A stretch of DNA of 64,000 nt from Ceratodon purpureus (taxonomy: Eukaryota > Streptophyta > Bryopsida > Pseudoditrichales > Ditrichaceae): assembly GCA_014871385.1 (NCBI GenBank), contig CM026426.1, forward strand, positions 26,944,265 through 27,008,264, written 5' to 3'. The notes beneath the pieces are model-generated. The model did no database searches. It saw only the letters and a program-made list of their open reading frames with translations, and was not told where the DNA came from. Position 1 is the first letter of the stretch; each line of letters opens with the position of its first letter. A program made the translations under genes and the position numbers. Below are positions 4,401-24,680 of the stretch, one piece after another.

Positions 4401-5925
4401 GGATCTCAGCCTCGGCAGCCTCGAGCTCCTTCCTCGCAGCCGCGACCATCTTCTCCTCCTCATCCAGCTGCTCCTGAATTCCCTCCATCTTGATCTTCTC
4501 TTTGAATACATCACCCCCTCCCTCTTCAAGTGCTTGGATCAACGCCGTCTTCTGCTCCTCCTGTTTCCTCAGTTGTCCCATGCCCCATTCGGACTGCTTG
4601 CTCTTCCAAATGGCTTGGTCAAGTCGTTCTGTTGCCTCCTTCTTCAGCTCCCGCTTAATCTTTTGCTCCAAGAAGATAGCCTGCATTAACCCCTCCACGT
4701 CTTGCAGCCGCTCTTCCACTGCCTCCTTCGCCAACCTCCCACTTGGAGCACGCGCCGCCGCATCCTCCTGCAAGCAGACTCCCGAGGCCATGGCGGATTC
4801 AAGTCCTCCCCTTGACTCACCCGGTGCCCCACGACCCCTCACCCTCATCGCATCACCTTGCTCCACCTTCCCTTCCCAGCCGGGCTCCACCTTGATGCCG
4901 CGCCATTCCTTCCCTCTCACGTCCACCTTCTTCTTCCCCTCCTCAGCCGTGGACTCCGCAATACTCTTGCGCAGCTCCTCTAGCTTTCCCCTATCCAGCT
5001 TGTATCTACTCCTCTGGCGCTTATTGGTCTCCTCCCCGAATGCACACCAATTCACTCGACCCCCTCCTTCCTCGTACTCCAGAGCAATCCCTTCGGCAAA
5101 CCTGATTGTAATCAGGTTCGGATTCTCCTCCTCTTCATGCTGGTATAGAATCGGGTGCAAGTATTTCACCCTGTCCACCACCTCCTGAACTTCGCAGCCC
5201 TGCCAATAAAATCCACTGCGGCCTCCATCTCCGTATGGCTTTCCAAATAACCTGCGCACCGTGTCACCTGAAACTGTGCCTCGACGGAAGTGGTGGGGAT
5301 TGTCTCCCTCGTTGGAGAGTCCATACTCTCCTGCGAAATCCGCCTTCTTCAACTCCCGCGGGGGCTTCTTCAGCCTCTCAATCTCTTCATCGACGTCCTC
5401 AACGCAATTGAAGGCCTTCTCGGAGCGTACATTCCCCTTCCCCTTCTTCTTCGCGGTGGACTTCAACACTGCCTGCTGTTCTCCATCGTCCTCGTCGCGG
5501 CTTTGTGCTCGACCTCGTGTCACTCCCCCTGTCTTCTTCAATGCCGGTGTTGCAGCCCCTTCTTCCACCTCGCGGCTTGGTGCTGGACCTCGTGTCGCTC
5601 CTCCCATCTTCTTCTGCGCCGGCGTTGCAGCTCCTTCTTCCACCTCGTCCCAGCCTCGTTTGTCTCCTCGGTTGGCAGCTGACTTCTTCCGGATCTCCTT
5701 GGCCTCAGGCTCCTGCGCAGATGACCCGCGTGCCTTCTTCCGCGGACCCTCCCTCCTAGCGTCGTCTTCATTGGGGGGGAAAGTTCGTACGTGAGCGGAG
5801 AGCGTAGAGCGGAGAGCGGTGAGCGCAGAATGGAGAGCACAGAATTGAGAATTAGGAAAATTTTCAAAAGCAAAGTAGACCCTATAACCGTGGAAAATTA
5901 CTAAATTAAGGCTTGATTTTGACAC
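1439..5925 (-). CDS. Unknown two-exon gene: coiled coil, RING-like Cys/His cluster and EKGP repeats, with an in-frame TAG
   Basis: I do not recognise this protein. Exon 1 is open from 5925 to 3930 and ends at donor GTAAGT; exon 2 runs 3030-1439 after a GGCAG acceptor. The split Gly codon is restored and total length divides by three (1,196 codons). Exon 1 encodes a basic N-terminus, two 26-residue repeats (VEEGAATPA..KK near 5490-5660), a Lys/Glu coiled coil, and a Cys/His cluster (CCLC, CRHLYHPFC, CKC, CGEMCHPDWH; about 4030-4190) that resembles a RING-type zinc fold. Exon 2 is acidic and Ser-rich, with about a dozen six-residue EKGP repeats at 2166-2420. A TAG at 2210-2212 interrupts the repeats where Gln is expected. 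No upstream in-frame ATG is visible (5925 is GTG), so the 5' end is unresolved or decayed. It may be a repeat-family gene. Confidence 0.5.
3031..3929 (-). other. Intron of the coiled-coil/RING-like gene, holding a two-copy 125-bp tandem repeat
   Basis: The 899-bp intron starts GTAAGT (3929-3924) and ends GGCAG (3035-3031). It holds two diverged copies of a roughly 125-bp unit, starting near 3368 and 3493. Both begin TATACAAAYATGACATTT and share GCGCCTAAC and CACCAAGTACTATGCA. No coding potential was seen. Confidence 0.6.
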
Positions 5926-5960
5926 TTTTTTTAGAAAAAGAATATATTACCGTGGAAATT
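5780..5960. repeat. Copy 1 of a dispersed 5'-flank repeat rich in GCTCTCC/GCTCACC
   Basis: The stretch upstream of the coiled-coil gene combines CCACGGTTATAGGGTC with runs of GCTCTCCGCTCT and ends at CTCACGTAC. Read in the gene's direction, the same order of blocks recurs on the plus strand at 24470-24670. This suggests a shared promoter or leader of a gene or element family. The second copy is not followed by homologous coding sequence that I can see. Confidence 0.55.
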
Positions 5961-6533
5961 AGGGTTATCTCTGGTAAGAATTTATTACGTTTGTTCTCTA
6001 AGATACAAATTAGGGCAAATGTCATGATGACGTCATGTATATATTTTGTTATATTTCTCATGGATTTAGGCAAGATATAATGATCAGGCGTTAAGTTTTA
6101 GATCAAACAAATAATTCTTTCATAGGATTATGTAAATGCAGAAGGAAAAAAACAACTTTCACAGAACATAAAGGAGGCAAGGTTTGAAAACTTCATGGAA
6201 TATTTCAAAATTCGTGTATAATATCTTAACTGCTGAAACCAAGATATACCTTGTTAGAGTCCTTGTCTTCATCAAAGATTACTCTCTCTTCGTAGGCAGC
6301 AAAGCATCTTCATTTCAGTGATACAAGTAGGAGATTTTCATCATCAAACAACACTTGGTAAGCTGGGTTCCAGAGAAGGAGGTCACTCTTGGTTTCTTGA
6401 GCTTCTCTCTAGATGGCGTATTTGGATAGTGACACAGTCCTTGGCATGCTGTGCTGTATGCGAAGGTAGCGTAGGAGTTCGGGGATGTCAATCTGCAAGC
6501 TTGCCTGTAACGTTTTAAGACTACAAGAATTCA
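5961..6533. other. Spacer without recognised gene; contains one arm of a diverged direct repeat
   Basis: This AT-rich spacer holds no ORF I can defend. Bases 6190-6250 (GGAATATTTCAAAATTCGTG, then GCTGAAACCAAGATATACC) match 7074-7133 at about three quarters identity. The two copies flank the small ORF at 6534-6917 as direct repeats. Confidence 0.4.
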
Positions 6534-6917
6534 GTGTGTTGCGCGATGCCGAAGGTGTGTAATGCGAGATCCAGGAGGACGAGAGCGGCTGTAGGTTTGC
6601 CCCCAAAGGCACCGGCGAGTTATGAGGAGCTGCGGCCGTGGCTGCTGGAGGTGGAGCGCGCCAGGAAACGAGGCATGGACCTGCCACCGTTTAGGCACAT
6701 CGGAAGCCTCCATGTTGGTGAAGGTGAATGGCGTTGGACAGTGCTTTGTACCAATGAGCTTCTCCGTATTATGGAGTTGTCTCTAATCCCGTATCCCTTG
6801 CTATCGAACGTCGATGAGAATCCAGTTGTTCAGCTGCCCGAAGTGATCATATCGGATGGCGAAACTTGCTGGTTTGATATGGACAAGAGTTGGACTGTAT
6901 ATCCTTCGAAGGATTAG
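6534..6917 (+). CDS. Small unknown protein
   Basis: The 127-residue reading frame is not recognised. A second ATG (MPKVCNARSRRTRAAVG) four codons in is the likelier start, giving about 123 residues. The N-terminus is basic; the middle (YEELRPWLLEVERARKRG) looks helical; the C-terminus is acidic with Trp residues (ETCWFDMDKSW). Composition looks more protein-like than the shadow frames around it, and no tandem repeat explains its openness. It lies between two diverged direct repeats (about 6190-6250 and 7074-7133), so it may belong to a small mobile unit or a local segmental duplication. It could also be one exon of a larger gene. Confidence 0.35.
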   Translation: MCCAMPKVCNARSRRTRAAVGLPPKAPASYEELRPWLLEVERARKRGMDLPPFRHIGSLHVGEGEWRWTVLCTNELLRIMELSLIPYPLLSNVDENPVVQLPEVIISDGETCWFDMDKSWTVYPSKD

Positions 6918-7430
6918 TACTGTGAAGTCTAGTGGGGTGTTCGAATACAATCCTTAAGATTTGGTCATTCATTGGATCTACATACGAGTATTCCAGCATG
7001 ATGGTTTTAGATAATATAGATGATTCTAGAAATAAGAAAAGAAAAATCAACTACAAGAAATGGTCTTAGAAGTCCGTGGAATATTTCAGAGTTCGTGTAC
7101 AATAATGGAGTAGCAGAAACCAAAATGTACACCAACTCGAGAATAGGTAACATGGCTATGCAAATGTGGGATTTTGAATGAGTAAAATATAAATAACAGC
7201 ACAATATTATATTTGAGCCTTTATTTTGTAACATTTCATTCTTCATATTATATTTTGAGCATTACAGTTGTGACATTTCATCCTTTACAAACACGGAGAC
7301 AAATTGGATATGAGAATCATAACAAGTTTAGGTTTAGGGTAGTAGAGTAGACGAAGGATTACCCAATGAACTCCAATTAAATCAAATCAAATCAAATGAA
7401 AACAACAATAGACCGAAGCCTACTTCAAAC
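6918..7430. other. Spacer with second arm of the direct repeat; no gene seen
   Basis: AT-rich sequence between the small ORF and the 3' end of the ParB-methyltransferase gene. It holds the second copy of the diverged repeat at 7074-7133. The 7260-7430 part probably includes that gene's 3' UTR, with short (AATCA)n runs at 7376-7396. Confidence 0.4.
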
Positions 7431-10400
7431 TCACAACATGCTACAGTCGGTACTTTCACTCTCAGAACTAGATGACTCTGAATCTCCTTCTACCGCCTCG
7501 TCATCGATGAATAGAAGGGCCCTGGGATCAAAAGTAGTTGGCCGACTAGGAACATATGTAAGGGCTCCAGATTGAAACGCCTGTGCTAAGCCCTCTGCGT
7601 AGTCCGGAAGTATGAAAGGCTGAATCGGGCTGGAATGAAGACGCCACGATGGAGTGGACACTGATGTTGGCCCACGTGGCGGTGTTGCTGAAACTACTCT
7701 GCAATAGAGAACCGATTGTGGTTAGATAGAGTACGTAGAGCTGCAAAGAGAAGTAATGCTTGGATAATTTGAACAAAGAATGAAAGACTTACACCACTTA
7801 TCAGGTCGTGGTCTCTTTGGAGGCGCTTCGCCTGTTGCTGCCGGCCTTGGATGTTTAGGAGGGCCCATGGCGGATGGTTTGAGAAGGGCGTTGAATATGG
7901 CTTCGTCCTCCTCAAAAGCGAGAATGTGACGACCAACAGCCTGGGCGGCCTTGATGGAGGCCCCTGAAACTCGAAGAGAAACAAAGAAATGAGAAACTTT
8001 GGAAAAAACGAGAGGAAAAATGAAGCAGAGATATGTAAGAGAGATACCTGTCCCAGCATTCCAGTCAACGACTATGTCGCCGGGCTTGGACAGCTCCTCA
8101 ATGATGTTCTGCATCATCTCAGGGGATTTCTCCCTTGGGCCTCTCCACGGCACCTCCCCATTCATGAGCTGAGATTCGGCATCGGTGAAGTTGAAAATGG
8201 CATCACTCTCGGTAATGTTGAGGAGCCCATGTATCAGGTCTTCCTTCTTCGTCTGGAAGGAGAAAGTACTGCCACTACGAACGTAGACGCGAATCCAGAA
8301 CCGCATAGTCTGGAGTCAAGCAGAACTAGTGAGTAAAATTAAGCGGAAGGGTTATCAGTAAGCGAAGAGAAGGGCATGTTTAAGAAAAGTACCAAGTTCT
8401 CGGGGTTCGTAGGAGAAGTCAGGCCGAGTACATTGACACCCCACCAGTCCTTGAACAGCACGTATCCATTAGCAGCAGCTTCTTCCTCGATATCCTTAGC
8501 CAGCTTCTGATCAGTGTTGTAGATGAGGCAGATGGCACCATCTTTCTGCAGGAATTCATCTGCAAAATGGAAGATGTCGTACAAATAATCCTTGTAGCGA
8601 GAGTTCCAAGGCGGAATACTCGTGGGGGGAATGGAAACGGATGGGACGGGAAGATTCTCAGGGATGTCGGCAATGATCAAGTCGACTCCCAGATGGTTCT
8701 CTTGTTTGCACCGGTCCGGAACTTCGTTTTCGCGGCCTGCTCCAAACTAGAGGAAACAAGAAAGGAGAGTTAGTAACTACATAGCGAGTAGAGGTGGCAG
8801 AATCCAGTAGATGTCAAAATATAGGAACAAACCTTGCGAATGAAGTCTTGAGTCTTGATCCAATCCGGGTCGCCCCCTTTATTCTCCCGTCTCCTATTTC
8901 GCCGTAACAAGGAATCCACAGATGAGTTGAAGACGGAAACATGTGTGGAAATCGAAGCTCCAGCTGAAGAAGTTGTTTGAGGATATAGTTTGGCCTTCCT
9001 CTGCTGAAGGAGACCTCTGGTGATCTCCGAAGCACTGATCGATGAAGGAGCCGGCGAAGAAGCTGGAGAAGGGTTGGTAACGATCATACCCGGAGAGGGC
9101 TCTGGTGCCTTCTCAGCTGGCGCGGAAGAGTCTGCACCAGTTTGCTGTGATGCCTCAGACTGAGAACGCAGAGATTTCAGTCGCCTTCCTCTCCCTCTCT
9201 TTGGTGGTGGAGCAGAAGACTGATCCTGTTCTCCTTCACGACCTTCTGCATCATCCACGGAGTCCTCCGCCACAACCTCACCCCCATCGTGTAGAGTCTT
9301 GACGTCCGCCTCTGAGTCAATCGTGAAACCACGAGAGCAATCAAGATACCAGCATCCCTCAAGCAAGTGAGAAGCTTTGTACCTTTTCAACTGTTGAGGA
9401 GAATAGATACACTGGTCCGAGGTTTTCGACGTCCAAGAAAGGAAGTAGCTTGGGAACTGCTGAACCTTGATTACCCCCTTCAGAACAAGCTGTCGCTTGA
9501 AGTACCTATGTAAACCAATATGTAGAAGGTTAGTATCAAAGAGATAAAGAGACCTCGTTCTGGAATTTGAATCTGATTAAGAGGAATGTATCGTACCGGT
9601 AAGTAACCCGCTTGACAACTTGGGCGGTTCCAGGAAATTTAGAAAAAATGGACTTCTTGTCGAAGGGCTTATCTGCTGATTTTCCAATGAACGTAGGGAA
9701 GGCCTTGTCCCACAAGAGAATACGTGAACTCTCCACATAATCGCCCGGCTGTTGGACATCAGGAAATGCCATCCAATTTATATCGAGGTTCTCCGTCTTG
9801 AATATGTCCTCGACTTCGTGGATGACGGCTTCCTCCAACTGTAATACAAAATTGATATAATTAGCAACGAAGAAGGAATACGGTAAAAAAATAAAGGAAC
9901 AAGTAATTGGAATGGATTTCTTATAAAAATTACCCCAGCCCAGAATGAAGCTTTGTTCAACCATGGGTCGAAGTCGGTGTCTTTGAATTCAGATGGCAGA
10001 AATCTGTAAGACGTTCGAGCACTCGGGGATGAGTTCCACCACTTCAACCAACGAGCCTTGTATTTGGGCTCAACGGCCGCAGGAACAATCTTCTGAAGCT
10101 TATCCACTGACATCTCAGGCTTATTGTTGAGACTGAAATGGCGATTAATCTGCAAGAATTACCGAAGTTTGAGAAAGATAAATACAGAAATTATTGAAGT
10201 CATGCGAAACAGCGAATTGAACAATGATCAGTGAGTCACCTCATTGAGGAAGTCGTCACCATTCTTGGGATTTGCAATAGCCAAGTACTTGGTGAAGTCC
10301 TTCTTCTTGATGGCTTCGACCATTCTCTCTGATGCCTCATTCATAACATCCCAAACTGCACTTGCAGACTGCTTATCCTTAGGTGTCTTCATGCGGTAGG

Positions 10401-12161
10401 CATTGGCTGCTTCATCGGAGGCCGCTGCGAGTTCCCGCTGTAGAAAGAGAATTCAGACTTAGGAAATTCCATGAGTATTGAATAATAAGACGCAAATAGA
10501 GAGAGGAAGTAGGACTTACTCGGTACAGAAATGCGATGAAAACTTTAGTTGTCAAGGGAAACCAGGAGGGATTAGGTGGCTTGTTCTTCAAACAGACGTC
10601 ATACTCTTGAGGACTGAGGAGGTCTTTGAATTCCTCCAGCTTCATCATTCCGAAAGAGCGGATTCGAAATAGTTTTGCAGGGAGATTACTCTTGACGTGG
10701 TCATTCTCAGTCGACCTGAAAATAAACCAAAACACGTATGATGAATAAAAGAGATGAGATAAACCAACAAATGAAAAACAGGAGAAAAGAAACAAGTACT
10801 TACCAGTTGATGTCGTGCATTGCGTGAAGAAGATTGCCAACGTGGCCACGGGGGTCGAGTACTATGCAGTGCACAGAGATGTGCCAAGACGGGTCGTCTG
10901 CATGATGCTTGTTGATATGACGAAGCCATGCTGAGAGGCGATGGTTACCTTCCCAGACAAAGAACATCTTCCCCGAGAATTGAGAGTAGTCCTCGTCACT
11001 TTGAAGCTCAAATTCGAAGGCATCATTCGCGTCCCTCCATAATGGGCTCCATCTAGCCATGACCTCATCCGTAACATCTCGCGTCTGCTCTTCGTTGTTG
11101 TACATGGAGATGTACATGACGCGGTCGCCATCTCTATACCCCTTGACGAACTCACGCTCCAAATGCTGCACACCCACTTCGCCCACTGGTCTGACCTTTG
11201 CCATTGGGATCATCCGACACAGGGGCACTAACATTCGGGACTTCTGCGATGGCTTGATCCTGAGCTTGTTGATGACGGCGTTGGAGTCCACCTTGTATAA
11301 GGTCTGATGTTCTAATTCCCCTTCTGTAGCAGTCTTCAAGTTTATCGGACAAGATGGTTTCACCAAAACATCTTGTGTTTGCGTAACCTGCGAGGGGGTG
11401 CGCAAATTAGGAAAACAAGCACAATCGAAGAAAGTCATGCAAAGTAGACAAGTATGTAAAAGAAAGTAACAATATATCTTCATACTGTCATCTCTCTTTT
11501 AACAACTCAATCATCATCTGTGATTGATAGAACTATCTACGTGAGGATCGACTATAGTACTCCTTAGACTGTCTACAGTTCCAGTGACGGCGCCTCCTCC
11601 AAAATCGCCTGGTCTGTTGGATTGGGCACGGTAGAATAGCCGGCAGAGCAAAGACGACATGGGCTGGCCTCCTGACTCGAATCGGCGAGGAAGGAGAGGG
11701 TGGAGACATCGGCGGGGAGCCCTGTGGAGGAGAAGTGGGCATATAGCCCGGGGAGGTAGGCTCATACACCGGGGATGTAGGCATGTACACTGGAGAGGTA
11801 GGCATGTACACTTGAGAGGTAGGCATGTACTGTGGAGAGTGGACCTGGAGAGGTCCACTTTCCACACCTACAGGGTTGGCTACATCACAGGTACAGTGGT
11901 ACTGATCAAATGAATCCGAAAGATCGGAAACATTGATGACAGAAATGGGGGAAGTAGCGGACATCTCAGGAGCATCGGATGATACCTACATTAGGAGAAA
12001 TGAAGAGATGATCAACTGCCCTAATTAAAAGAGTAGGAAACAAAGAAGGGAAGAGGGCGAATAGAACTCAACATCATAAACATAAAAAAGGAATATAAAT
12101 TGTAGATTGAATGAAATACCTCAGTTTGTGCTGGCGTAGGGTCTTGACGTTCGCTCCCCAT
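7431..12161 (-). CDS. ParB-like domain / beta-class DNA amino-methyltransferase fusion with CTD-like heptads
   Basis: The gene has at least 12 exons: 12161-12120, 11985-(about 11620), 11387-10804, 10715-10520, 10437-10240, 10149-9934, 9838-9597, 9505-8833, 8746-8393, 8309-8048, 7963-7798, 7698-7431. All introns have GT/AG ends, and exons 3-12 keep one frame for 1,052 residues. Exon 2 encodes five heptads of YxPTSPx type. Exon 3 encodes a ParB/Srx-like domain with WEGNHRLSAW (GNHR at 10938-10949). The middle region is unrecognised, followed by a Ser/Pro/Arg-rich linker. Exon 9 holds a motif-IV-like strand, DLIIADIPE. Exons 10-11 hold motif X/I, KPGDIVVDWNAGTG then AAQAVGRHILAFEEDE. This IV-then-I order is the beta class of N6-adenine/N4-cytosine methyltransferases. 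DIPE replaces DPPY/SPPY, so catalysis is doubtful. The donor of exon 2 is unresolved (possible frameshift), and exon 11 uses a weak GTGGTG donor. The C-terminus is acidic and Ser-rich. Confidence 0.8.
11725..11829 (-). other. Five RPB1-CTD-like heptads encoded in exon 2
   Basis: Five consecutive seven-residue units read YMPTSQV, YMPTSPV, YMPTSPV, YEPTSPG and YMPTSPP. Each keeps the Y-x-P-T-S-P frame of the RNA polymerase II large-subunit tail (YSPTSPS). Codons differ between units, mostly at third positions, so the repeat is not a fresh DNA slippage product. The flanks are Ser/Pro-rich. Confidence 0.85.
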
Positions 12162-12447
12162 GTGATCCCCATCAGAGTCCTTAATTGTAAACAATGTTGT
12201 AAGTAACAAAAAGAACAGGAACTTTTAAGATACAAACCAGAACCTCGAGAAGGCTCCCTAGAAAACCTTTAAAACTCATAAAGACTTATAAGATTTTATT
12301 TAAGACTTCGTAAATTAAAACCCTTTCAATCAACACAAAAAATCAAAGAGGAAAAAAATGGAACAACTATCAGAAATCCCAAATTGTCCCCCAACCTTAA
12401 CATTCAAATACGAATACCATTTTCAACAAAGAACACATTTCCATCGG
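12162..12447. other. 5' flank of the ParB-methyltransferase gene
   Basis: No separate gene was seen. The stretch upstream of the ATG at 12161 is open in frame to 12209 but lacks another ATG. An AG at 12183-12182 could be the acceptor of a further 5' intron. The satellite array begins within about 300 bp. Confidence 0.4.
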
Positions 12448-15400
12448 GTTTTTTATTTTTACAAAATTAAAAAAAAAAACATCATCAACAAAGACCATAT
12501 ACTTATGAAATACTTTATATTTAATTCGGTCCTAATCAACAAATCACTCAAAGAATAAAAAAAAAATTAAAAAAAATTCAGAAAACCGAAATGGAGCAGC
12601 ACCCTCCCGGCCTACTGTCGTTGACGACAGTAGGTGGGCGGGTTTTTTATTTTTACAAAATTAAAAAAAAAAACATTGAAATACATATTCCAAGATCAAC
12701 AAAGACCATATACTTATGAAATATTTTATATTTAATTCGGTCCTAATCAACAAATCACTCAAAGAATAAAAAAAAAATTAAAAAAAATTAAGAAAACCGA
12801 AATGGAGGAGCACCCTCCCGGCCTACTGTCGTTGACGACAGTAGGTGGGCGGGTTTTTTATTTTTACAAAATTAAAAAAAAAAACATTGAAATACATATT
12901 CCAAGATCAACAAAGACCATATACTTATGAAATATTTTATATTAAATTCGGTCCTAATCAACAAATCACTCAAAGAATAAAAAAAAAATTAAAAAAAATT
13001 CAGAAAACCGAAATGGAGGAGCACCCTCCCGGCCTACTGTCGTTGACGACAGTAGGTGGGCGGGTTTTTTATTTTTACAAAATTAAAAAAAAAAACATTG
13101 AAATACATATTCCAAGATCAACAAAGACCATATACTTATGAAATATTTTATATTTAATTCGGTCCTAATCAACAAATCACTCAAAGAATAAAAAAAAAAT
13201 TAAAAAAAATTCAGAAAACCGAAATGGAGGAGCACCCTCCCGGCCTACTGTCGTTGACGACAGTAGGTGGGCGGGTTTTTTATTTTTACAAAATTAAAAA
13301 AAAAAACATTGAAATACATATTCCAAGATCAACAAAGACCATATACTTATGAAATATTTTATATTTAATTCGGTCCTAATCAACAAATCACTCAAAGAAT
13401 AAAAAAAAAATTAAAAAAAATTCAAAAAACGGAAATGGAGCAGCACCCTCCCGACCTACTGTCGTTGACGACAGTAGGTGGGCGGGTTTTTTATTTTTAC
13501 AAAATTAAAAAAAAAAACATTGAAATACATATTCCAAGATCAACAAAGACCATATACTTATGAAATATTTTATATTAAATTCGGTCCTAATCAACAAATC
13601 ACTCAAAGAATAAAAAAAAAATTAAAAAAAATTCAGAAAACCGAAATGGAGGAGCACCCTCCCGGCCTACTGTCGTTGACGACAGTAGGTGGGCGGGTTT
13701 TTTATTTTTACAAAATTAAAAAAAAAAACATTGAAATACATATTCCAAGATCAACAAAGACCATATACTTATGAAATACTTTATATTTAATTCGGTCCTA
13801 ATCAACAAATCACTCAAAGAATAAAAAAAAAATTCAAAAAAATTCAAAAAACGGAAATGGAGGAGCACTCTCCCGGCCTACTGTCGTTGACGACAGTAGG
13901 TGGGCGGGTTTTTTATTTTTACAAAATTAAAAAAAAAAACATTGAAATACATATTCCAAGATCAACAAAGACCATATACTTATGAAATATTTTATATTTA
14001 ATTCGGTCCTAATCAACAAATCACTCAAAGAATAAAAAAAAAATTAAAAAAAATTCAAAAAACGGAAATGGAGCAGCACCCTCCCGGCCTACTGTCGTTG
14101 ACGACAGTAGGTGGGCGGGTTTTTTATTTTTACAAAATTAAAAAAAAAAACATTGAAATACATATTCCAAGATCAACAAAGACCATATACTTATGAAATA
14201 TTTTATATTTAATTCGGTCCTAATCAACAAATCACTCAAAGAATAAAAAAAAAATTAAAAAAAATTCAGAAAACCGAAATGGAGGAGCACCCTCCCGGCC
14301 TACTGTCGTTGACGACAGTAGGTGGGCGGGTTTTTTATTTTTACAAAATTAAAAAAAAAAACATTGAAATACATATTCCAAGATCAACAAAGACCATATA
14401 CTTATGAAATATTTTATATTTAATTCGGTCCTAATCAACAAATCACTCAAAGAATAAAAAAAAAATTAAAAAAAATTCAAAAAACGGAAATGGAGCAGCA
14501 CCCTCCCGGCCTACTGTCGTTGACGACAGTAGGTGGGCGGGTTTTTTATTTTTACAAAATTAAAAAAAAAAACATTGAAATACATATTCCAAGATCAACA
14601 AAGACCATATACTTATGAAATATTTTATATTAAATTCGGTCCTAATCAACAAATCACTCAAAGAATAAAAAAAAAATTAAAAAAAATTCAGAAAACCGAA
14701 ATGGAGGAGCACCCTCCCGGCCTACTGTCGTTGACGACAGTAGGTGGGCGGGTTTTTTATTTTTACAAAATTAAAAAAAAAAACATTGAAATACATATTC
14801 CAAGATCAACAAAGACCATATACTTATGAAATATTTTATATTTAATTCGGTCCTAATCAACAAATCACTCAAAGAATAAAAAAAAAATTAAAAAAAATTC
14901 AAAAAACCGAAATGGAGGAGCACCCTCCCGGCCTACTGTCGTTGACGACAGTAGGTGGGCGGGTTTTTTATTTTTACAAAATTAAAAAAAAAAACATTGA
15001 AATACATATTCCAAGATCAACAAAGACCATATACTTATGAAATATTTTATATTTAATTCGGTCCTAATCAACAAATCACTCAAAGAATAAAAAAAAAATT
15101 AAAAAAAATTCAAAAAACGGAAATGGAGCAGCACCCTCCCGACCTACTGTCGTTGACGACAGTAGGTGGGCGGGTTTTTTATTTTTACAAAATTAAAAAA
15201 AAAAACATTGAAATACATATTCCAAGATCAACAAAGACCATATACTTATGAAATATTTTATATTAAATTCGGTCCTAATCAACAAATCACTCAAAGAATA
15301 AAAAAAAAATTAAAAAAAATTCAGAAAACCGAAATGGAGGAGCACCCTCCCGGCCTACTGTCGTTGACGACAGTAGGTGGGCGGGTTTTTTATTTTTACA

Positions 15401-17032
15401 AAATTAAAAAAAAAAACATTGAAATACATATTCCAAGATCAACAAAGACCATATACTTATGAAATACTTTATATTTAATTCGGTCCTAATCAACAAATCA
15501 CTCAAAGAATAAAAAAAAAATTCAAAAAAATTCAAAAAACGGAAATGGAGGAGCACTCTCCCGGCCTACTGTCGTTGACGACAGTAGGTGGGCGGGTTTT
15601 TTATTTTTACAAAATTAAAAAAAAAAACATTGAAATACATATTCCAAGATCAACAAAGACCATATACTTATGAAATATTTTATATTTAATTCGGTCCTAA
15701 TCAACAAATCACTCAAAGAATAAAAAAAAAATTAAAAAAAATTCAAAAAACGGAAATGGAGCAGCACCCTCCCGGCCTACTGTCGTTGACGACAGTAGGT
15801 GGGCGGGTTTTTTATTTTTACAAAATTAAAAAAAAAAACATTGAAATACATATTCCAAGATCAACAAAGACCATATACTTATGAAATATTTTATATTTAA
15901 TTCGGTCCTAATCAACAAATCACTCAAAGAATAAAAAAAAAATTAAAAAAAATTCAGAAAACCGAAATGGAGGAGCACCCTCCCGGCCTACTGTCGTTGA
16001 CGACAGTAGGTGGGCGGGTTTTTTATTTTTACAAAATTAAAAAAAAAAACATTGAAATACATATTCCAAGATCAACAAAGACCATATACTTATGAAATAT
16101 TTTATATTTAATTCGGTCCTAATCAACAAATCACTCAAAGAATAAAAAAAAAATTAAAAAAAATTCAAAAAACGGAAATGGAGCAGCACCCTCCCGGCCT
16201 ACTGTCGTTGACGACAGTAGGTGGGCGGGTTTTTTATTTTTACAAAATTAAAAAAAAAAACATTGAAATACATATTCCAAGATCAACAAAGACCATATAC
16301 TTATGAAATATTTTATATTAAATTCGGTCCTAATCAACAAATCACTCAAAGAATAAAAAAAAAATTAAAAAAAATTCAGAAAACCGAAATGGAGGAGCAC
16401 CCTCCCGGCCTACTGTCGTTGACGACAGTAGGTGGGCGGGTTTTTTATTTTTACAAAATTAAAAAAAAAAACATTGAAATACATATTCCAAGATCAACAA
16501 AGACCATATACTTATGAAATATTTTATATTTAATTCGGTCCTAATCAACAAATCACTCAAAGAATAAAAAAAAAATTAAAAAAAATTCAAAAAACCGAAA
16601 TGGAGGAGCACCCTCCCGACCTACTGTCGTTGACGACAGTAGGTGGGCGGGTTTTTTATTTTTACAAAATTAAAAAAAAAAACATTGAAATACATATTCC
16701 AAGATCAACAAAGACCATATACTTATGAAATATTTTATATTAAATTCGGTCCTAATCAACAAATCACTCAAAGAATAAAAAAAAAATTCAAAAAAATTCA
16801 GAAAACCGAAATGGAGGAGCACCCTCCCGGCCTACTGTCGTTGACGACAGTAGGTGGGCGGGTTTTTTATTTTTACAAAATTAAAAAAAAAAACATTGAA
16901 ATACATATTCCAAGATCAACAAAGACCATATACTTATGAAATACTTTATATTTAATTCGGTCCTAATCAACAAATCACTCAAAGAATCAAAAAAAAATTA
17001 AAAAAAATTCAAAAAACCGAAATGGAGCAGCA
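12448..17032. repeat. 211-bp satellite array with central palindrome and 8-mer higher-order structure
   Basis: A CCTACTGTCG palindrome recurs 21 times at exactly 211-bp steps, from 12611 to 16831, with no length change. Each monomer holds the palindrome, a GGGCGGGTTTTTTATTTTT segment, a long A-tract, ATTCGGTCCTAATCAACAAA, then two more A-tracts. Monomer variants recur with a period of eight (1,688 bp): TATTAAATTC in place of TATTTAATTC follows palindromes 2, 5, 10, 13, 18 and 20, and CACTCTCCC precedes palindromes 7 and 15. The last recurrence comes one monomer early, as unequal exchange would give. The first unit (from about 12448) lacks the palindrome, and the last runs out near 17032. The identical 98-residue ORFs inside are by-products. 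Confidence 0.95.
12611..12634. repeat. First of 21 perfect 24-nt palindromes (11-bp arms)
   Basis: Arms CCTACTGTCGT and ACGACAGTAGG pair perfectly around a TG centre. Every one of the 21 monomers keeps this palindrome intact although neighbouring positions vary. The outer CCCGG/GGGCGGG flanks could add partial pairing. A GC-rich hairpin followed by a T-run lies in every monomer. Confidence 0.9.
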
Positions 17033-17290
17033 AATCCAACAAATGCACAAGGCCTCATTGGAGGCCGAAGCCTCCTCGGCTGGAGTGCTCAAACATCAAC
17101 TACATCAAGACATTAATACAAAACCGAGGCTTCCTCGAAGGCATAAGCCTCCTCGGCCTGCAAGAGTGTGAGCAGAGGGGAGCCTCAACAAATCCAAACA
17201 AATCCCAAGTAATGAACTACAAATCGCAAGCACCAAACAACATAACCAAAGCTCACAACCAAGCCCAAGTATCCAACAACAGGACCATAA
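17033..17290. other. Unique spacer with GAGGC-rich short inverted motifs
   Basis: Between satellite and minisatellite, the segment repeats GAGGC, GCCTCCTCGGC and CCGAGGCTTCCTCG in both orientations (17050-17160). No ORF of interest. It may be the unique flank of both arrays. Confidence 0.4.
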
Positions 17291-17550
17291 CCCGAATCCA
17301 AATGCAAACTCACAACCCGAATCCAAATGCAAACTCACAACCCGAATCCAAATGCAAACTCACAACCCGAATCCAAATGCAAACTCACAACCCGAATCCA
17401 AATGCAAACTCACAACCCGAATCCAAATGCAAACTCACAACCCAAATCCAATTTCAAACTCACAACCCGAATCCAAATGCAAACTCACAACCCGAATCCA
17501 AATGCAAACGCACAACCCGAATCCAAATGCAAACTCTCAACCCGAATCAT
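17291..17550. repeat. 25-bp minisatellite, about ten copies
   Basis: Units begin CCCGAATCCAAATGCAAACT at 17291 and every 25 bp to 17516, with a partial copy to about 17550. The unit at 17441 carries several changes. Because 25 is not a multiple of three and the unit lacks stops on the plus strand, all three frames stay open, giving spurious NPNPNANSQPESKCK-like ORFs. Confidence 0.95.
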
Positions 17551-17680
17551 TTTAAACCACAATAATGTTCAAATCCAAGTACATTGTACAAAATCATAAT
17601 CACAAACCTGGCCGTACGCACTCATGATGGAGATGAAGTCCGTACGAGAGAATCAACCCAATATTCAAAAAACCCATCAT

Positions 17681-18061
17681 TCAAACAATCGTCCTCGGAA
17701 TCAAGGTGGAGGAGGTGGGCGGTACCTGGTCTTCCTCTTCCTCGTTTTCGAGAGGATTCTCCTCTTCCTCTTCCTCGCTGCCCTCGCTCCCGTCGCTCCC
17801 GCCTGGAGCTCCAACCCCGAGCTCAGGCTGAGGCTCGGGCTCCTCCATCCGCAGGTCGTCTTCTCCCAGGCCTTGGGCCTCTCCTCCATCTCCCTGTCCG
17901 TCCTCCTCGACTCGCCCTTGCTGCTCCAAGTCCCTGGCCGCCATCGCAACCCCACCTTTCCCACCCTGCAATATCCCCTCCCTGGCTCTCCTCGCAACTT
18001 CACGCAAGCGCATGCTCTCGGTGCCCTCTCCAACAAGTGAGAGTGGAGTTGAAACTCCCAC
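17681..18061 (-). CDS. Possible exon of an unknown acidic protein
   Basis: An open minus-strand frame starts after a possible acceptor (GGGAG at about 18066-18062) and passes a possible donor (CAG then GTACCG near 17723). It encodes a helical Arg-rich start (MRLREVARRAREGI) and a long Glu/Gly-rich tail ending in Glu runs. There is no ATG at its upper end. The family is not recognised; it may be one exon of a larger gene or simple-sequence drift. Confidence 0.3.
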   Translation of the reverse strand: MGVSTPLSLVGEGTESMRLREVARRAREGILQGGKGGVAMAARDLEQQGRVEEDGQGDGGEAQGLGEDDLRMEEPEPQPELGVGAPGGSDGSEGSEEEEEENPLENEEEEDQVPPTSSTLIPRTIV

Positions 18062-18218
18062 CTCCCTTATCCACTTGTTACTCTTTGTAAAATCAGGAAA
18101 AAAATAAGGATTATAAGTTGAAGGCCGTCAAATGTAATAAACTTGATTAAATCATACCCTAGTTTTGCAAAAAAAAAATGCTATATTTTTATTCAAATTA
18201 TAAATGTACATAAGAGAT

Positions 18219-18695
18219 TCATATTACACTTTCTCTAAGTACACTTACTTCAACAGAATTAAAGTCATGCTCGGATTGAGAATTAGGGCCCCTTGTCAAA
18301 GAGTCAATGAATCTGATAGAAGTCTCTGCTGATTCTACTCTCTGACTACAATTAAAAACTAGTTCATCCGTCATGGCCTCACGTGCAACTCCACTTACGA
18401 GTACCTCCACTTCGTGCTCTTGACGCTCAACAACGGTGTTCTCTAATATCTCTTCCTTCTCCTCCACTATAGACTCGAGAATGAGTTTTCGAATGCTACA
18501 GAACTTCAATGCTACAGGCAGGCCGACTCCTCTCCTTTTTACAGGAGCACTCAAATTGTCACCTTTAAAAACTACCTTCTTACGTAATGCTCTCCTCTTT
18601 CTAGCTCTCCTATCCGTGAAATCTGTACCACCTGGTTTTCTTCTAGGTTTAGGAGTGACATAAGTGGAGGGAGATGGCCCTCCAATCTCCTTCAT
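18219..18695 (-). CDS. Unknown basic protein next to the MULE transposase
   Basis: The 158-residue frame starts at a true ATG (18695). It opens with MKEIGGPSPSTYVTPKPRRK, is very basic up to about residue 60 (RRARKRRALRKK), and then becomes acidic and helical. A TATTTAAGG TATA-like box lies about 75 bp upstream on the minus strand. It is divergent from the transposase gene at 19301. Its position and size resemble the small ORF at 23238-23690 on the other side, so it may be an accessory ORF of the same transposon. No conserved domain was recognised. Confidence 0.45.
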   Translation of the reverse strand: MKEIGGPSPSTYVTPKPRRKPGGTDFTDRRARKRRALRKKVVFKGDNLSAPVKRRGVGLPVALKFCSIRKLILESIVEEKEEILENTVVERQEHEVEVLVSGVAREAMTDELVFNCSQRVESAETSIRFIDSLTRGPNSQSEHDFNSVEVSVLRESVI

Positions 18696-19300
18696 GTGTC
18701 TAACCCCAGGAAGGACTCTCTCACAAAAAAAAGACTCTCATGAGAGCTTCCTCCCACCTTAAATACCTATCACGTAGAACCCTAATTTGATATACAAATT
18801 TAAAAACTGACACATTCTCTACCCTCTCTCATTTAATGGAAGTAAAGTTAATAATTTGAACCTTTGATTAAAAAGAATAAATCCAAGAATACCATAATCT
18901 AAAAGATCTGATTCAAGCATTTCAATGCATGCTTCTTTTTATATTAATTGTTATAATTGTAGAATTTAAATGACGGCTCATTCTAATCTTATAATACATC
19001 ATGACAAATAGAATCCGCTTCACGATTCAAATTGTTAAAGTACAGTTCTAAAATTTTTGACATGATATACTTAGACCTGCAAAAAGTGGCATTGTAATTA
19101 GTTGGCGCCGTCTCTCTTAAATCTTACATTCGTTACCTAACAGAATGAATCATTCTCTAACTCTTTACTGGGCGTTCCAACCAGAATAAAATGATCAACA
19201 GCGACGCATCATTCCTCTCACTTTGTAATCGCGATACTGCTTCGCTAGTTCTCTCACTCTCCTCCCATCTTTCACTAGTATCACTGAGTTCCCTGCGAAC
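18696..19300. other. Intergenic region between divergent genes
   Basis: AT-rich spacer holding the likely promoter of the minus ORF (TATTTAAGG near 18765) and the leader of the transposase. The frame at 19301 stays open a little upstream (from about 19230) but has no earlier ATG in frame that I can place. No terminal inverted repeat could be recognised by eye. Confidence 0.35.
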
Positions 19301-22300
19301 ATGGGGATGGTCTGTCTGTACGCCCAAGGCATGGGCATCCCTCTTAGGTTTCGCGTAGATGACGATGGTCTAGCTACAGTCTCCTCTCTTCGCCTGAGTC
19401 TCAGATTCCACTTCCGTGAAGATACCATCAGTATAGAGGAGGAGATCTTTGATGACGTTACTGCCGAGGTTACCCACACCCTCGGGCAACCTTCAGTGAG
19501 AGATGAAAATAATATGCTGCAGTGGAGACTCCTTCCTGGATCCTATAGAGTCTATGGTCTTACTGATTCTCTGATGGCTGCATCCACCGAGATCCTCACC
19601 CCCCGTCGCTCTTCTACTTGCACAATTCAGACTCCCTTACCTCGTGATGTGAAAGTCAAAGTCGAGCCTGGTACTGAAACTTCAGACGTAGAGAAACCTC
19701 CTCCTCCAACAGTCATTTCTCTCTCTTCTGATGACGAAGTCAATCCCGTCAAGTTGGTGCCTAAGGTCCATGCAGATGCTCCTCCTTCCAATGTCTCTCC
19801 TCCATTGTCCCAGGTCACAGTTAGCATTGTTCCGCTCCTTAAAGAGATTGCTAAGACGCGTGGGTCCAAAAACATTTTGAAGAAGATAGACTATTCCACT
19901 ATTAGTCACGAGAGAGTAGAGTACTTGCCTGCGAAGTTTGATGGTCCGGTTCTTTTTGAGTTGCCCCCAGCTGCTGCAGGTTCCTCTAAGCTCGCCGCCA
20001 AGTCTATGCAGGGAATGGACAAACGATACGACGGACACTTGTGGACCAAGACCATCACAACAAACAACAAAAACGACTTCGGACTCTCTTTTCGAAGTTC
20101 CACCTGCGTCGGATGGCTGCGCTGCACCAACCAGGAGTGTGACTTTCTCAAGCGTGTTCCCAAGATCTTCGAGGTCAACGAGACTGAGTTCGAAGGCTGT
20201 ACCCTGCAAGCTTTTGTCATGGACCAGCCTCCTCCATCCGACTCCACGCTAGTGTGCAAGGTATGTAAAGAACCTCCATCATGTGTAGCTACATGCGAGG
20301 CTAAGATTTATTACGTTGTGGGCAAACCGAATCAGACTAGAGCGTGTATTCACATAGGAACACATGATCATCCAGTGAAAGTAGGAGACTACAGAGACTC
20401 TAAAGCAGAGATTAGTAGCTTAATAGAAGAGCAGGTAGAGATGAACAACAAAGCAACAAAGAGCGCCGTTGTCCTGGAGGCGAGCAAACTCCTCATCGGG
20501 AGCTACCTTCTACAGCCCGAGGATGCACCAGCGAGGAAGCTGACGATGGAGGAGCTGGTTCCTGTTCTGGATCGATGCAAAGACATGGCGTCGCCCAACA
20601 TCCGCAACAAAGTTGCCACCTTCAAAAAATTCGTAAGGTACGGAATCATGGACGGTATCACCAAGCTCCGTGGTAACAGTCTCTGGGCGTATGTCCAGGA
20701 GAATAGGTTTCCTGGACATGGATCGATGCGTGACAAAGTCTTTGTCTTCAAGATGTCGGAGGTCGGGCCGGGCAGTGGTGTCGACTTGGTCAGCCGTATG
20801 CAAGCTGGTGGCGATTTGGAGAACGCATGGATCATGTTCGACCATGTCAAACGCGTCAAAGATTGGTCGACGATGGCGTGCCATGTGTACGACGCCACCT
20901 ACTGCCGCGTGATGACAATCGCCACTTGCGACATGCAGTCCGAAGACACGGACGCCCAGCTCGTCTTCTGGAAAAACCTGAACCTGGTCATGGAGATCAA
21001 TGGCGTTGCAGCGCCGAACTTCAAGGGGTTCATGGCGGATAACGCACAGGCGAATTGGAATGCAGTGCGAATCCTTTACGGCAATGGCAACAAGGAGGAC
21101 CCAATGGAGGACCGGGAGAGGTCGTGCTTCTTCCACTGGACTCAGAACATGGTGGCGTATACGCAGAAGCACTTCCCCGAAGAACTCTGGGAACAGCACA
21201 AGAAGATGTGCACTCAGTACAAGAATGCGACCAGCATGGCAGAGGCGGAAACCCTGTACCACGCGTTGCGAGCATGGTGGGCATCCACCGGGGTCGTTGG
21301 CGAGAGCGGGCTCATCAAACTCGATCAGTGGCTGTCATTCTGGCACCACCGCTTCCGCCAGTGGGGGGGATTCATGACCGAGGTATTATCTCTGCTCTCT
21401 GTTTTGATGTTTTTGATACTGGTTTCCTAGCCCTAACCTACAAAACTCTAATCCGTGAATCTAACGGCATCTACTGTCAAATCTGCAGAAATTCACGAAA
21501 GAAGAACTCACAGAGATGCCCACCTGTAACCTCGCCGAAACAGTTCATAACAAGTGGCTCCAAGCCTCAGGAAACAACGGGAACGACCTGTACGTTGCTA
21601 CCGTGGACGATTTCGTTCGGGCTTTTCTAGAGGTTGTCAACTACTACCAGTTCCTCAAAGGTGACGTCGGCGGAACAGGACCATCCAAAAAGGAACTCAG
21701 GCTTCGGATGGCGGAACGCAACGCGAAGAAATGGGGAAATCCTACACTGCTCGACAAGCCCATGCTCGATATGCCAGGCGCGGATGAGTTTTGCACCCGT
21801 CAGCCTATCATGCCAGGAGCGGAAGTCTTCGGTTCAAAGAAGCGAAAAGCCGACGTCCTTATCGGAGCTGACGAAGAGTCTCATCGCCCGGATAAGACCA
21901 ACTTCTCACGCCCAAGAGGCCCAAGACGTGCCGTCAGGGCTCGCCCTATGCAGATGCCCGTCATTGTGGAAGACGACTCCGAACACGACACCGACGTACA
22001 ATGTACCCAACCTCCTGCCCAGGAAGTTGATTCCCCTTTACCTTCACCTGTGAACAAGGGCGGCATTCGCCATGTCAACGCGGTTGAAGAAACCAAGGTG
22101 GACGTGAAGGAGTGGCACATTTCGAGACTTCACAAACTTTCTGCGAAGTGCTGCTGGGCCCAAAGAGCTGAAACGAAGAAGAAGTGCACTGAGAGAATCG
22201 TCAGGGGGCCCCATTGCACAGCTGCACCGACCTACACTGGGCTCTGGACTAACTATCGCAGGAACCTAGTGGAGAAGACTGAGTTCTTCTTCTGCTCCGA

Positions 22301-22982
22301 CGATATCGAGCGTTGCGTGAAAGGCTCTAAGCGCAAGTGGGTAGCACACTACTCAAAGGACCAGGAATTCCCCTCCATTCCAGAGGTGTGGCCAGTGAAA
22401 CTAGGTACTAACCTAAAACTTACTGAGATTCTTGCCCTCGAAGCAGCGGGCTTTCAACTTCCGCAGAAGAAACCTGTCTCCCCAAGACGCCTCTTCTCCT
22501 CTGCCCCGCCCCCTGCAAATCTCAGCTCGCTGCCAGTCCCTGCAGACGCTGACCGCTACCCAGGGAAGAGAGACGGCAAGATGGTGCAGCGCACTGCCAC
22601 TCGTCCCAATCAAGCGCAGCGACTCTCCATGGGCTCCTCCGAGTCTCTTAAAGCGCGCCTCCGTTCCGTCACCATGATACCAGAGCCGGGCCACGGTTGC
22701 ATCATTGGGCTGGATTCGGGCGTCGCTCCACACATCACACGGTACCAGATTACCATCAGTTCTTACCCTGGTTGCACTTGCCCAGCATTCAAGAAGACGA
22801 TGACTACGTTCCGTGGCAAGACTCTGTTCACGTATTGTAAGCACCTATACTACATACTCTTGAAGGTCTGCAACCGTGATCCCGAAGCGGAGCTTTTCAT
22901 CCATGCGCCTACCTTCAGCTTCAACGAGGTCAAGCTTCTCCTAGAGAGTGGAATCTTGCGTCACCCCTTGGCGAAGAAGTAG
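19301..22982 (+). CDS. MULE-type (Mutator-like) transposase with SWIM zinc finger
   Basis: Two exons, 19301-21382 and 21489-22982, join in phase across a GTATTA...CTGCAG intron to give 1,191 residues. The transposase would bind transposon ends and cut DNA. About residues 240-365 contain spaced Cys residues and GTHDHPV, like the WRKY-GCM1/FLYWCH-type fingers of MULE proteins. A DDE-type core follows: CHVYDATYC (first Asp), GFMADNAQANW (second Asp) and RSCFFHWTQN (the C/H step of MULEs). The SWIM finger near the C-terminus reads CTCPAF...YCKHLYYIL. A bipartite basic, acidic linker separates core and SWIM finger. Terminal repeats and target duplications were not found, so it may be a domesticated copy. 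The frame is intact over its whole length. Confidence 0.8.
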
Positions 22983-23237
22983 GTAGCCCTCCTACTTTAG
23001 AACTGCCATTTCCACAATGGCCATTTGTCACGTAGTGAATGATTTTAGTAATATCCCATGTACTAAGTCAGCTATTCAGAAGCTGTATTGACTTTTTCAT
23101 TATATTAAGGGCTTTGTCGTTCACATTAATTGCATTCTATTTCAATACAATCTATCTTGAACAAGTGCACTATATACTTCGTATCCCCTGACATGTATCT
23201 TTTATAACTAGATGACATATACTTGTTATTAGATGTC
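22983..23237. other. Convergent 3' region between transposase and small minus ORF
   Basis: Likely 3' UTRs of the two convergent genes. AT-rich, no ORF. Confidence 0.35.
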
Positions 23238-23690
23238 TCAATCTTCGAACCTAACACGTTTAGGGTTGCCCACTACACTATCAGCAGGACTGCCAGCCGC
23301 TGACTGTACTACAGGACAAACTACATTCGCATTCACTTTCGTTCCCACACTTGGCAAATGTCCTTGGTATGATCGTTTCAGCAATGGCCCACCTCCCCGC
23401 CTCCGATTAACTGATTCCCTGGAATAGGTTCCCCTTGGGATCTTTCCAACCTTCGAGTATGCATGTGGTTGCAAAGGCACATCTGCGTCCTTCTCTAGCA
23501 CTATGATTTCATCCGAATTTTCTGAACGTGGAGGGTCAGCTCTTACATCCGGTTGGACGTCAACATCCGTTGTCGAAGGACGCCCTTGGCTGTTGGCCAT
23601 CACCTCTTCTTCGTCCTCCACCTCAACATATGGTTGAAATGGACAAACATCGTCAGCAAGTGAAACAACAATATCTCTGACGTCTTCCAT
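23238..23690 (-). CDS. Unknown 150-residue protein convergent with the transposase
   Basis: The frame starts at ATG 23690 (MEDVRDIVVSLADDVCPF). The first half is acidic; the second half is Arg/Gly-rich (SVNRRRGGGPLLKRSYQG) and ends NPKRVRFED. A TATTTAAG box lies about 80 bp upstream on the minus strand, as in the ORF at 18219-18695. No domain recognised. Size, strand and promoter similarity to that ORF suggest both belong with the transposon, but their sequences are not obviously alike. Confidence 0.45.
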   Translation of the reverse strand: MEDVRDIVVSLADDVCPFQPYVEVEDEEEVMANSQGRPSTTDVDVQPDVRADPPRSENSDEIIVLEKDADVPLQPHAYSKVGKIPRGTYSRESVNRRRGGGPLLKRSYQGHLPSVGTKVNANVVCPVVQSAAGSPADSVVGNPKRVRFED

Positions 23691-23922
23691 AGCTGCTGTC
23701 CCGCACTACGGAAAAGAGCTTCACATAACACCAACACAAAAGAGGCAGAGACATTCCCTACTCTTATCTTAAATATCCGCGAAGAAGATGCTTGGCGCCC
23801 TTGAAAATCGGCTATTCATTCATTGAGAAGTTGTCATCCTCTTAAACCGAATGGAAAAAGATGAAGGTTTAGCAGAGGTCATTTAGCATTTAAATTTTTT
23901 TTTTAAAATTAAAGAATGAAAA

Positions 23923-23958
<36 letters not shown>

Positions 23959-24469
23959 ATTTATATAAATTGAAATTAAAAAGATTAAAGAAAAGAATAG
24001 CAATATTTAAAATGAAGGTTGAAAATAATATGAAGAAGATTAACAAATTGAATGTGAAAATAAAATGATTGTGAAAATAAAATGAAGGAGAGAATTAAAT
24101 GAAAGGAGGCTTTTGACCCCTCTAACAAGATAGATAGAATAAAGAAAATTTTATAAAAAATACAAGACAAATTTCAAAAAAATTAAAAGAAAATAAAAAA
24201 AAGGAGAAAGGCGTGTAGACTATGGTGGATGAATTCTAGCAATGTTAAGAAAATGTTACGAAATTAAATGTTACTTGATCCCTGTTCAAAGGTTCAATAC
24301 CAATACATTTTAAGTAGTAATTTGCATATAAATTTAAGGAGATAAGGGGAATTACTGTATGCCTAACTAGTTAGAAGGAGCTGGAGCCTAGTAATTGGTG
24401 CACGTTAAAAAATTAATCACCAAGAAAAGAGAAAACCAACTACAAATTCAATGAAAATACTGTAATTAG
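23691..24469. other. AT-rich spacer with A30 tract
   Basis: No gene seen. Bases 23928-23957 are thirty uninterrupted A residues within a longer A/T-only stretch, followed by low-complexity AAAT and GAAAAT runs to about 24200. The tract could be the 3' tail of a reverse-transcribed insertion, but no LINE or SINE body was recognised beside it. Confidence 0.45.
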
Positions 24470-24680
24470 TCCACGGTTATAGGGTCAATTAAATTACTAA
24501 AATTAGTAAATTTCCAAAAATAAATTAAGAATATTCGAATCTTCTAATTTTATGATTTATTTTTAGTAAAAAAAGTGCTATTTTTAGGTTCTGTCCCCCA
24601 TTCTGTGCTCTCCGCTCTCCAAATCTGCGCTCACCGCTCTCCGCTCTGCGCTCTGCGCTCACGTACAAGCTACCCTCCTT
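24470..24680. repeat. Copy 2 of the dispersed 5'-flank repeat
   Basis: On the plus strand this segment has CCACGGTTATAGGGTC, then TTCTGTGCTCTCCG, repeated GCTCACCGCTCTCCGCTC and CTCACGTAC. These are the same blocks in the same order as the 5' flank of the minus-strand gene at 5780-5960 read in its own direction. Two telo-box-like ACCCTAAACCCTAAG motifs follow near 24857. Confidence 0.55.

Follow-up and report, generated by a model that had tools for sequence, protein, structure and literature searches.

A 64,000-nt stretch of the genome of the moss Ceratodon purpureus (hereafter the window) contains a spliced gene whose predicted protein combines a ParB-like region with a region homologous to beta-class DNA methyltransferases (7431..12161, minus strand; hereafter the ParB-methylase gene). 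Comparison with other copies in the genome showed that it is an accessory gene of a large, multi-copy MULE-like DNA transposon. An array of near-identical palindromic sites lies beside the gene within the same element, which suggests that the gene product binds and controls its own transposon. Both the ParB-methylase protein and the transposase of the element are under purifying selection, which is strongest in the ParB-like exon.

A multi-copy transposon with a spliced accessory gene

Shared alignment edges, termini and imperfect inverted repeats delimit a whole transposon copy of 18,902 bp at 5776..24677 of the window. It is flanked by the target-site duplication CTTCATTGGG on the left (5766..5775) and on the right (24678..24687), and it is bounded by imperfect terminal inverted repeats, the left one about 80 bp long and built of ~7-bp subrepeats GAGCGGA (5776..5856, plus strand) and the right one at 24595..24677 (minus strand), both with approximate inner edges. 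Exact 10-bp duplications were found in all five elements with both ends (those of the window and of copies c3, c6, c8 and c10), and the duplicated sequence in the latter four differs from that of the window. When the genome (362.5 Mb in 151 contigs, with the window at C6:26944265-27008264) was searched with exon 3 of the ParB-methylase gene, at least 150 copies were obtained (the best 150 of 1905 candidates), all 150 at 88–100% identity. This copy number rules out a single captured host gene. The initial annotation had proposed that one such gene was captured in an algal lineage; the gene is instead part of a high-copy DNA transposon, and an algal host is rejected in favour of a plant, the moss C. 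purpureus, whose genome holds 85 matches to the light-harvesting protein family. The element was present on all of contigs C1–C13 among the matches listed, and it is apparently young. For closer comparison, the window and ten other copies (c2–c11) were examined with their flanks. Copy c2, on contig C8, had itself landed in a further copy of the element and sits at the exon-2 tail of that copy's ParB-methylase gene.

In our model, the ParB-methylase gene has 12 exons separated by GT-AG introns and yields a single 1176-aa frame. Exons 1–4 lie at 12161-12120, 11985-11659 (3′ end provisional), 11387-10804 and 10715-10520, exons 5–8 at 10437-10240, 10149-9934, 9838-9597 and 9505-8833, and exons 9–12 at 8746-8393, 8309-8048, 7963-7793 and 7696-7431. 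The model is supported by splice sites and selection in the ten other copies: GT and AG are present at all 11 introns in 8 of them, with one altered site each in c6 and c10, and identity to the window is 97–99% in coding sequence and 93.5–97% in introns. The gene was thus correctly placed and correctly described as spliced in the initial annotation. Besides the altered splice sites of c6 and c10, the lesions consist of a stop codon in c2 and c11 and a 1-nt deletion in c4, while the gene is free of such lesions in c3, c5, c7, c8 and c9. The further claim that all exons form one frame agrees with the 1176-aa frame, but the join of exons 1–2 to exon 3 is uncertain. Positions 11540-11658, at the start of intron 2 in the model, show coding-like conservation, with a ratio of nonsynonymous to synonymous substitution rates (dN/dS) of 0.07, so that they may belong to a longer exon 2, to a separate small gene made of exons 1–2 or to another isoform. 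Exon 2 of the model also contains about five heptads like YMPTSPV (11729..11839, minus strand), which we take to resemble the heptad YSPTSPS of the RNA polymerase II C-terminal domain. The heptads are present in the window and in all ten other copies; c3 has an additional heptad and c6 lacks one.

The second main gene of the element, divergent from the first, encodes a MULE-like transposase of 1191 aa (exons 19301-21382 and 21489-22981, plus strand) with a C-terminal CxC..CxH SWIM-like motif. Its core is present in at least 150 copies (the best 150 of 2090 candidates). By eye, the protein has a zinc-binding-like N-terminal part and D..D..C-x2-H..E-like residues ahead of the CxC..CxH motif, features that we take to resemble those of MULE transposases. 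MULEs are characterized by target duplications of 8–11 bp and long terminal inverted repeats, and the termini of this element, with exact 10-bp duplications and imperfect inverted repeats of ~80 bp, agree with these hallmarks. The transposase did not match the MULE model PF10551, although other loci of the genome match it, and the SWIM model PF04434 matched weakly (E 0.21, 11.6 bits, below the cut-off of 19.6); we therefore refer to the element as MULE-like only and do not file it as a MULE. AlphaFold modelling of a single-sequence stretch of the transposase was poor (predicted local distance difference test, pLDDT, 49.5). Stop codons interrupt the transposase in c2, c3 and c8 and are absent in c5, c6, c7, c10 and c11; the stretches examined of c4 and c9 contain no transposase. 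A very diverged relative, F40 (C5:15299500-15308999), has the counterparts of exons 7–10 in one 569-aa open frame. The divergent layout is preserved there, and the N-terminus of its transposase shares 42% identity with that of the window.

Both proteins of the element are under purifying selection. Pooled dN/dS was 0.24 for the ParB-methylase gene (window and 10 copies, 55 pairs) and 0.11 for the transposase (window and 8 copies, 36 pairs), the pairs within each pool not being independent. Within the ParB-methylase gene, the nonsynonymous/synonymous ratio counted by distinct substitutions was 0.07 in the ParB-like exon, 0.17–0.27 in exons 1–2, 4–7 and 8, 0.33 in exons 9–11 and 0.67 in exon 12, making the ParB-like exon the most constrained of the six gene regions.

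A 24-bp dyad array between the two genes

The space between the two divergent genes is occupied by a satellite array of 21.6 units of 211 bp (12484..17032, plus strand). It contains 21 exact copies of CCTACTGTCGTTGACGACAGTAGG, the first at 12611, a 24-bp dyad with 11-nt arms and a 2-nt centre. Exact dyads number 7–48 in the stretch examined of each of the ten other copies and have one orientation per element. Genome-wide, 1706 exact matches were found, compared to 0 for the reversed control, and the dyad was absent from the terminal inverted repeats of the elements examined.

The dyad is the core of a conserved block within units whose flanks diverge between element copies. When units of the 11 element copies were located through 60 nt of flank instead of through the dyad, with a flank anchor that was itself taken from dyad-bearing units, the dyad was exact in 207 of 230 units, had 1–3 mismatches in 14 and more in 9. 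Across the 11 array majority units, a 46-nt block around the dyad was invariant at 45 of 46 columns; these units were picked by the dyad, so that its 24 columns are invariant by construction, but the free block columns next to it were invariant at 21 of 22, compared to 69 of 169 columns in the rest of the unit. Within arrays, the block was less variable than the flank in 10 of 11 cases, in units picked by at most 8 mismatches to the dyad, a choice that favours conservation.

The array lies near the ParB-methylase gene more often than near the transposase. We made this comparison on contig C1, which was taken as complete because the listed dyad places cover it in contig order and continue into C2. 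Among the matches listed there, 9 of the 13 window-type ParB exons have an array in the 3 kb on their 5′ side; for the transposases, the count within 15 kb is 3 of 24, and all three stand beside window-type ParB exons (Fisher p 0.0008, with entries that are not fully independent and distances chosen by the analyst). Over the whole genome, a divergent partner from the list of transposases stands 4–40 kb away from 38 of the 150 listed window-type ParB exons.

The ParB family is diverse in this genome, and a search with a sister-lineage ParB exon returned further ParB types. Among 96 listed matches at 44–51% identity, 14 have a listed divergent transposase 4–40 kb away, 12 of them at 6–11 kb, compared to 0.69 on average and 5 at most in a shifted control; among the listed sister-type matches at ≥66% identity, 1 of 53 has such a transposase. 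At 12 loci, a transposase 99–100% identical to the window's (213-aa query) lies 6–11 kb from a ParB-type gene outside the window-type list, that is, one absent from the list of at least 150 window-type exon-3 matches. Three of these loci are on C1 and have no exact dyad. One nearly constant transposase thus seems to go with different ParB genes.

The ParB-like and methyltransferase-like regions

The ParB-like region is encoded by exon 3 (10804..11387, minus strand) and was recognized by a motif, VWEGNHRLSAW, and by conservation in six aligned sequences. GNHR is invariant in all six (as EGNHRLSAW or DGNHRLVAW), within a G-[EN]-[HR]-R-x-x-A pattern that we take to be like Box II of ParB. Collections of phages, plasmids, viral contigs and prokaryote genomes were scanned with this region and gave no relative, and tblastn gave one match at E 7 in phages and none in plasmids. 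A match to DndB at E 0.006 was obtained with one of six relatives; chance-like matches in such scans reached the same level (E2F_TDP at 0.012 in two of six, UzuA at 0.005 and PtuB at 0.006 in one of six each), and we therefore term the region ParB-like only. Some proteins of the ParB fold, including a DndB-like one, are described as binding nucleotides (PMC12704722).

The methyltransferase-like region lies in exons 9–11. Exon 9 (8393..8746, minus strand) holds a degenerate motif IV region, VDLIIADIPENLP, and exons 10–11 (7793..8309, minus strand) hold motif X (RGPREK) and motif I (VVDWNAGTG). Residues 1002–1057 match PF01555 (N6_N4_Mtase) in Pfam with E 3e-8, and all seven family members match this model at E ≤ 1 (best 4.4e-10, window 6.6e-10). 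A seven-row family profile matched DpnA (E 2.7e-9) and CcrM (6pbd; E 1.7e-6) among PDB sequences, the latter over profile positions 4–217 and thus nearly full length, confirming the beta-class motif order IV-X-I that the initial annotation had read from the sequence. The gene may therefore be regarded as a homologue of beta-class N6-adenine/N4-cytosine methyltransferases, which is not to class it as an active enzyme. Prokaryotic and viral collections scanned with the methylase alignment gave no relative; tblastn found methylase core stretches only, in 33 phage records.

Catalysis by this domain appears doubtful in the window lineage. The motif X core (RGPxEK), the motif I Asp and the acidic residue after it are invariant in seven aligned sequences, although c10 and c11 carry changes in RGPREK. 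At motif IV, the window and 10 of 10 copies read DIPE, F40 reads DVPE and five sister-lineage members (F29, F30, F33, F34 and F36) read D[QT]P[FY]. Catalytic motif IV follows the rule (D/N/S)PP(Y/F/W), and motif I usually contains Phe. The window and all ten copies depart from the motif IV rule, and it is the loss of the aromatic residue that makes catalysis doubtful. CcrM-type adenine methyltransferases share the order IV-X-I with the moss domain, whereas the moss motif IV reads DIPE instead of DPPY and its motif I reads D-W-N-A-G-T-G. Of the two roles foreseen in the initial annotation, a reader of DNA sites has gained circumstantial support from the dyad array, and DNA modification has been weakened by DIPE in 11 of 11 copies.

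Candidate roles, known relatives and the rest of the window

The reading that we favour, at a confidence somewhat short of even, is that the ParB-methylase protein, as an accessory factor of the transposon, binds the dyads arrayed in its own element and acts as a regulator or anti-silencing factor. It would in this resemble the VANC proteins of Arabidopsis VANDAL elements, which are not known to have a ParB or methylase domain. The dyads would be recognized by the ParB-like region, which probably works as a nucleotide-dependent clamp on DNA or as a DNA-binding switch, and ParB-like protein would coat the region between the two genes; such coating could keep the element expressed or unsilenced, or adjust the expression of the gene itself. 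The methyltransferase-like domain would probably serve as a module that binds S-adenosylmethionine or DNA, with little or no catalysis in the window lineage, and may remain an enzyme in the sister lineage. A more specific scheme, which we consider possible but rather unlikely, is a parS-like system in which the ParB-like protein, with a methylase-derived module that lacks its catalytic motif, loads at the dyads, spreads and shields the element from silencing. Subfamilies with nearly the same transposase would then each evade silencing through their own ParB and site code, and a clamp-and-site module of bacterial style would operate in the epigenetics of eukaryotic transposons.

Binding of the dyad by the ParB-like protein is what we infer from the sequence, and several observations weigh against it. 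The ParB assignment is a pattern call: the ParB-like exon matched no ParB/Srx model in Pfam, PHROGs or NCBIfam and no ParB among PDB sequences, hhalign of the region to P1 ParB gave 0.4% only, and AlphaFold modelling of the single window sequence (pLDDT 34) was too poor for a fold search. The ParB/Srx-like character claimed for exon 3 in the initial annotation is therefore upheld by the GNHR motif and not by the model searches. Four of the 13 window-type ParB exons on C1 stand without an exact-dyad array in their vicinity, and a ParB gene of another type is found 5.1 kb from one of the arrays. No such array was seen at two diverged relatives, in the 9.5 kb examined around F40 and the 4.1 kb examined upstream at F29, and only 36 of 150 listed transposases are paired with a listed window-type ParB exon. 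The lists of exon-3 copies, transposases and further ParB types are samples, and so are the co-occurrence counts made from them. The array of c7 has a 46-nt block that varies no less than its flanks, and array units may be homogenized by conversion. The copies are related, which is why the dN/dS pairs are not independent. Finally, the dyad may serve as a binding site for a host factor or for a different protein of the element, or it could act as an RNA hairpin.

An active, self-methylating accessory enzyme, whose ParB-like part would target and whose methylase part would write N6-methyladenine or N4-methylcytosine on the element's own DNA so that it escapes silencing, seems to us unlikely. It would account for the PF01555 match, for the invariant motif X core and motif I acidic residues and for the D[QT]P[FY] of the five sister-lineage members; on the other side stand the DIPE and DVPE of the window lineage and F40, which lack the aromatic residue of the motif IV rule, a motif I without the usual Phe, the altered RGPREK of c10 and c11 and a methylase part less constrained than the ParB-like part. 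A role of this kind has been proposed for the relative in Ectocarpus (PMC12477816). We judge it just as improbable that the array is a site for the transposase or a host factor and that the ParB-methylase gene has an unrelated role. The position of the array, between both genes and near the transposase promoter, would suit such a site, and other transposons are known to have repeated internal sites. Against it, an exact-dyad array is missing within 15 kb of 21 of the 24 near-identical transposases listed on C1, compared to the 9 of 13 ParB exons with an array within 3 kb, and the terminal repeats lack the dyad.

A role of the dyad in RNA, such as a stop or processing signal kept for the structure of a transcript, has still less to recommend it. 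As RNA it folds into a hairpin of -26.5 kcal/mol (z -6.3) followed by T6, and its single orientation within each of 11 elements would fit a transcribed signal, but the sequence itself is mostly exact (207 of 230 units), where pairing alone could be kept by other sequences. Least probable, and in our view very much so, is an ordinary passenger, a captured gene beside a self-homogenizing satellite without joint function. Gene capture is frequent in large transposons, and satellites do become homogenized; purifying selection across the gene, the sharp limits of the conserved block in units that vary from copy to copy and the divergent layout with the transposase in the very diverged F40 all argue against it.

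ParB-methylase genes are already known from transposons of algae, and the moss gene is a variant with a dyad array. Sola1-1_Ec32 of Ectocarpus is described as a 21.5-kb DNA transposon with a 1104-aa ParB-like and N4/N6 methyltransferase protein on the strand opposite the transposase, and transposons of green and red algae are reported to encode proteins of this kind; binding and modification of the own element are only a proposal for them (PMC12477816). By this description, the moss gene is alike in lying inside a DNA transposon, divergent to the transposase. The brown-algal element is, however, a Sola1 element, unlike the moss element with its 10-bp duplications, SWIM-like/MULE-like transposase and dyad array. 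The VANC proteins are anti-silencing proteins, described as pairing a sequence-specific binder with tandem arrays of its motif, and VANC21 recognizes an arrayed, one-orientation motif in the non-coding DNA of its own VANDAL element (PMC5735166). The likeness to the moss element, again by description, is the one-orientation motif array in the own transposon, which the moss protein would bind. Fungal DNA transposons are described as carrying TET/JBP dioxygenase genes (PMC12730594), likewise a DNA-modification-type accessory gene common to several transposon lineages, from a different enzyme family and host. The same pairing of domain types is described in fusions of ParB-CTPase and N6_N4 methyltransferase domains from phages and bacteria, which are prokaryotic, linked to mobile elements and, for the N6_N4 type, frequent in phages (PMC12704722). 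A partial literature search, with most subscription papers outside its reach, found no report of a moss ParB-methylase transposon gene or of the dyad array.

What the moss element offers is a concrete candidate target, one dyad present in 7 to at least 48 copies per element examined and placed beside the gene, which turns a vague proposal of self-binding into a one-step binding test. If the favoured reading is true, the VANC principle of self-recognition by arrayed motifs would extend to a second, unrelated protein architecture, and a bacterial-type DNA clamp would have been recruited for transposon defence. The case also calls for caution, since what is taken for a captured methyltransferase in the genome of a plant or alga can be a transposon gene of doubtful enzyme activity.

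The element has further parts outside the two main genes. A small conserved open reading frame of 123 aa (6546..6917, plus strand) is open in all nine copies aligned there (c7 gave no match), with a pooled dN/dS of 0.13. Another of 172 aa (18222..18737, minus strand) is weakly constrained (pooled dN/dS 0.36) and had a chance-like Pfam match only. A tandem array of 10.4 units of 25 bp lies at 17289..17548 (plus strand).

C. purpureus is reported to have a genome of 360 Mb and sex chromosomes, U and V, that each exceed 100 Mb (PMC8000587), and we infer that the contig of the window, C6 (110.5 Mb, 30% of the assembly), belongs to a sex chromosome. Canonical MULE matches (PF10551) are concentrated on this contig, with 60 of 93 listed matches by hand count, compared to the window element on all of C1–C13. 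Elsewhere in the window, a Ty3/Gypsy-type element (36544-47466, minus strand) carries matches to gag, reverse transcriptase, RNase H and integrase in a frame of 2228 aa; beyond a single stop codon, the same frame is open for 1412 aa without a Pfam match at E 0.01. A fragment of a reverse-transcriptase RNase H region lies at 51173-51883 (minus strand; PF17917, E 2.8e-36).

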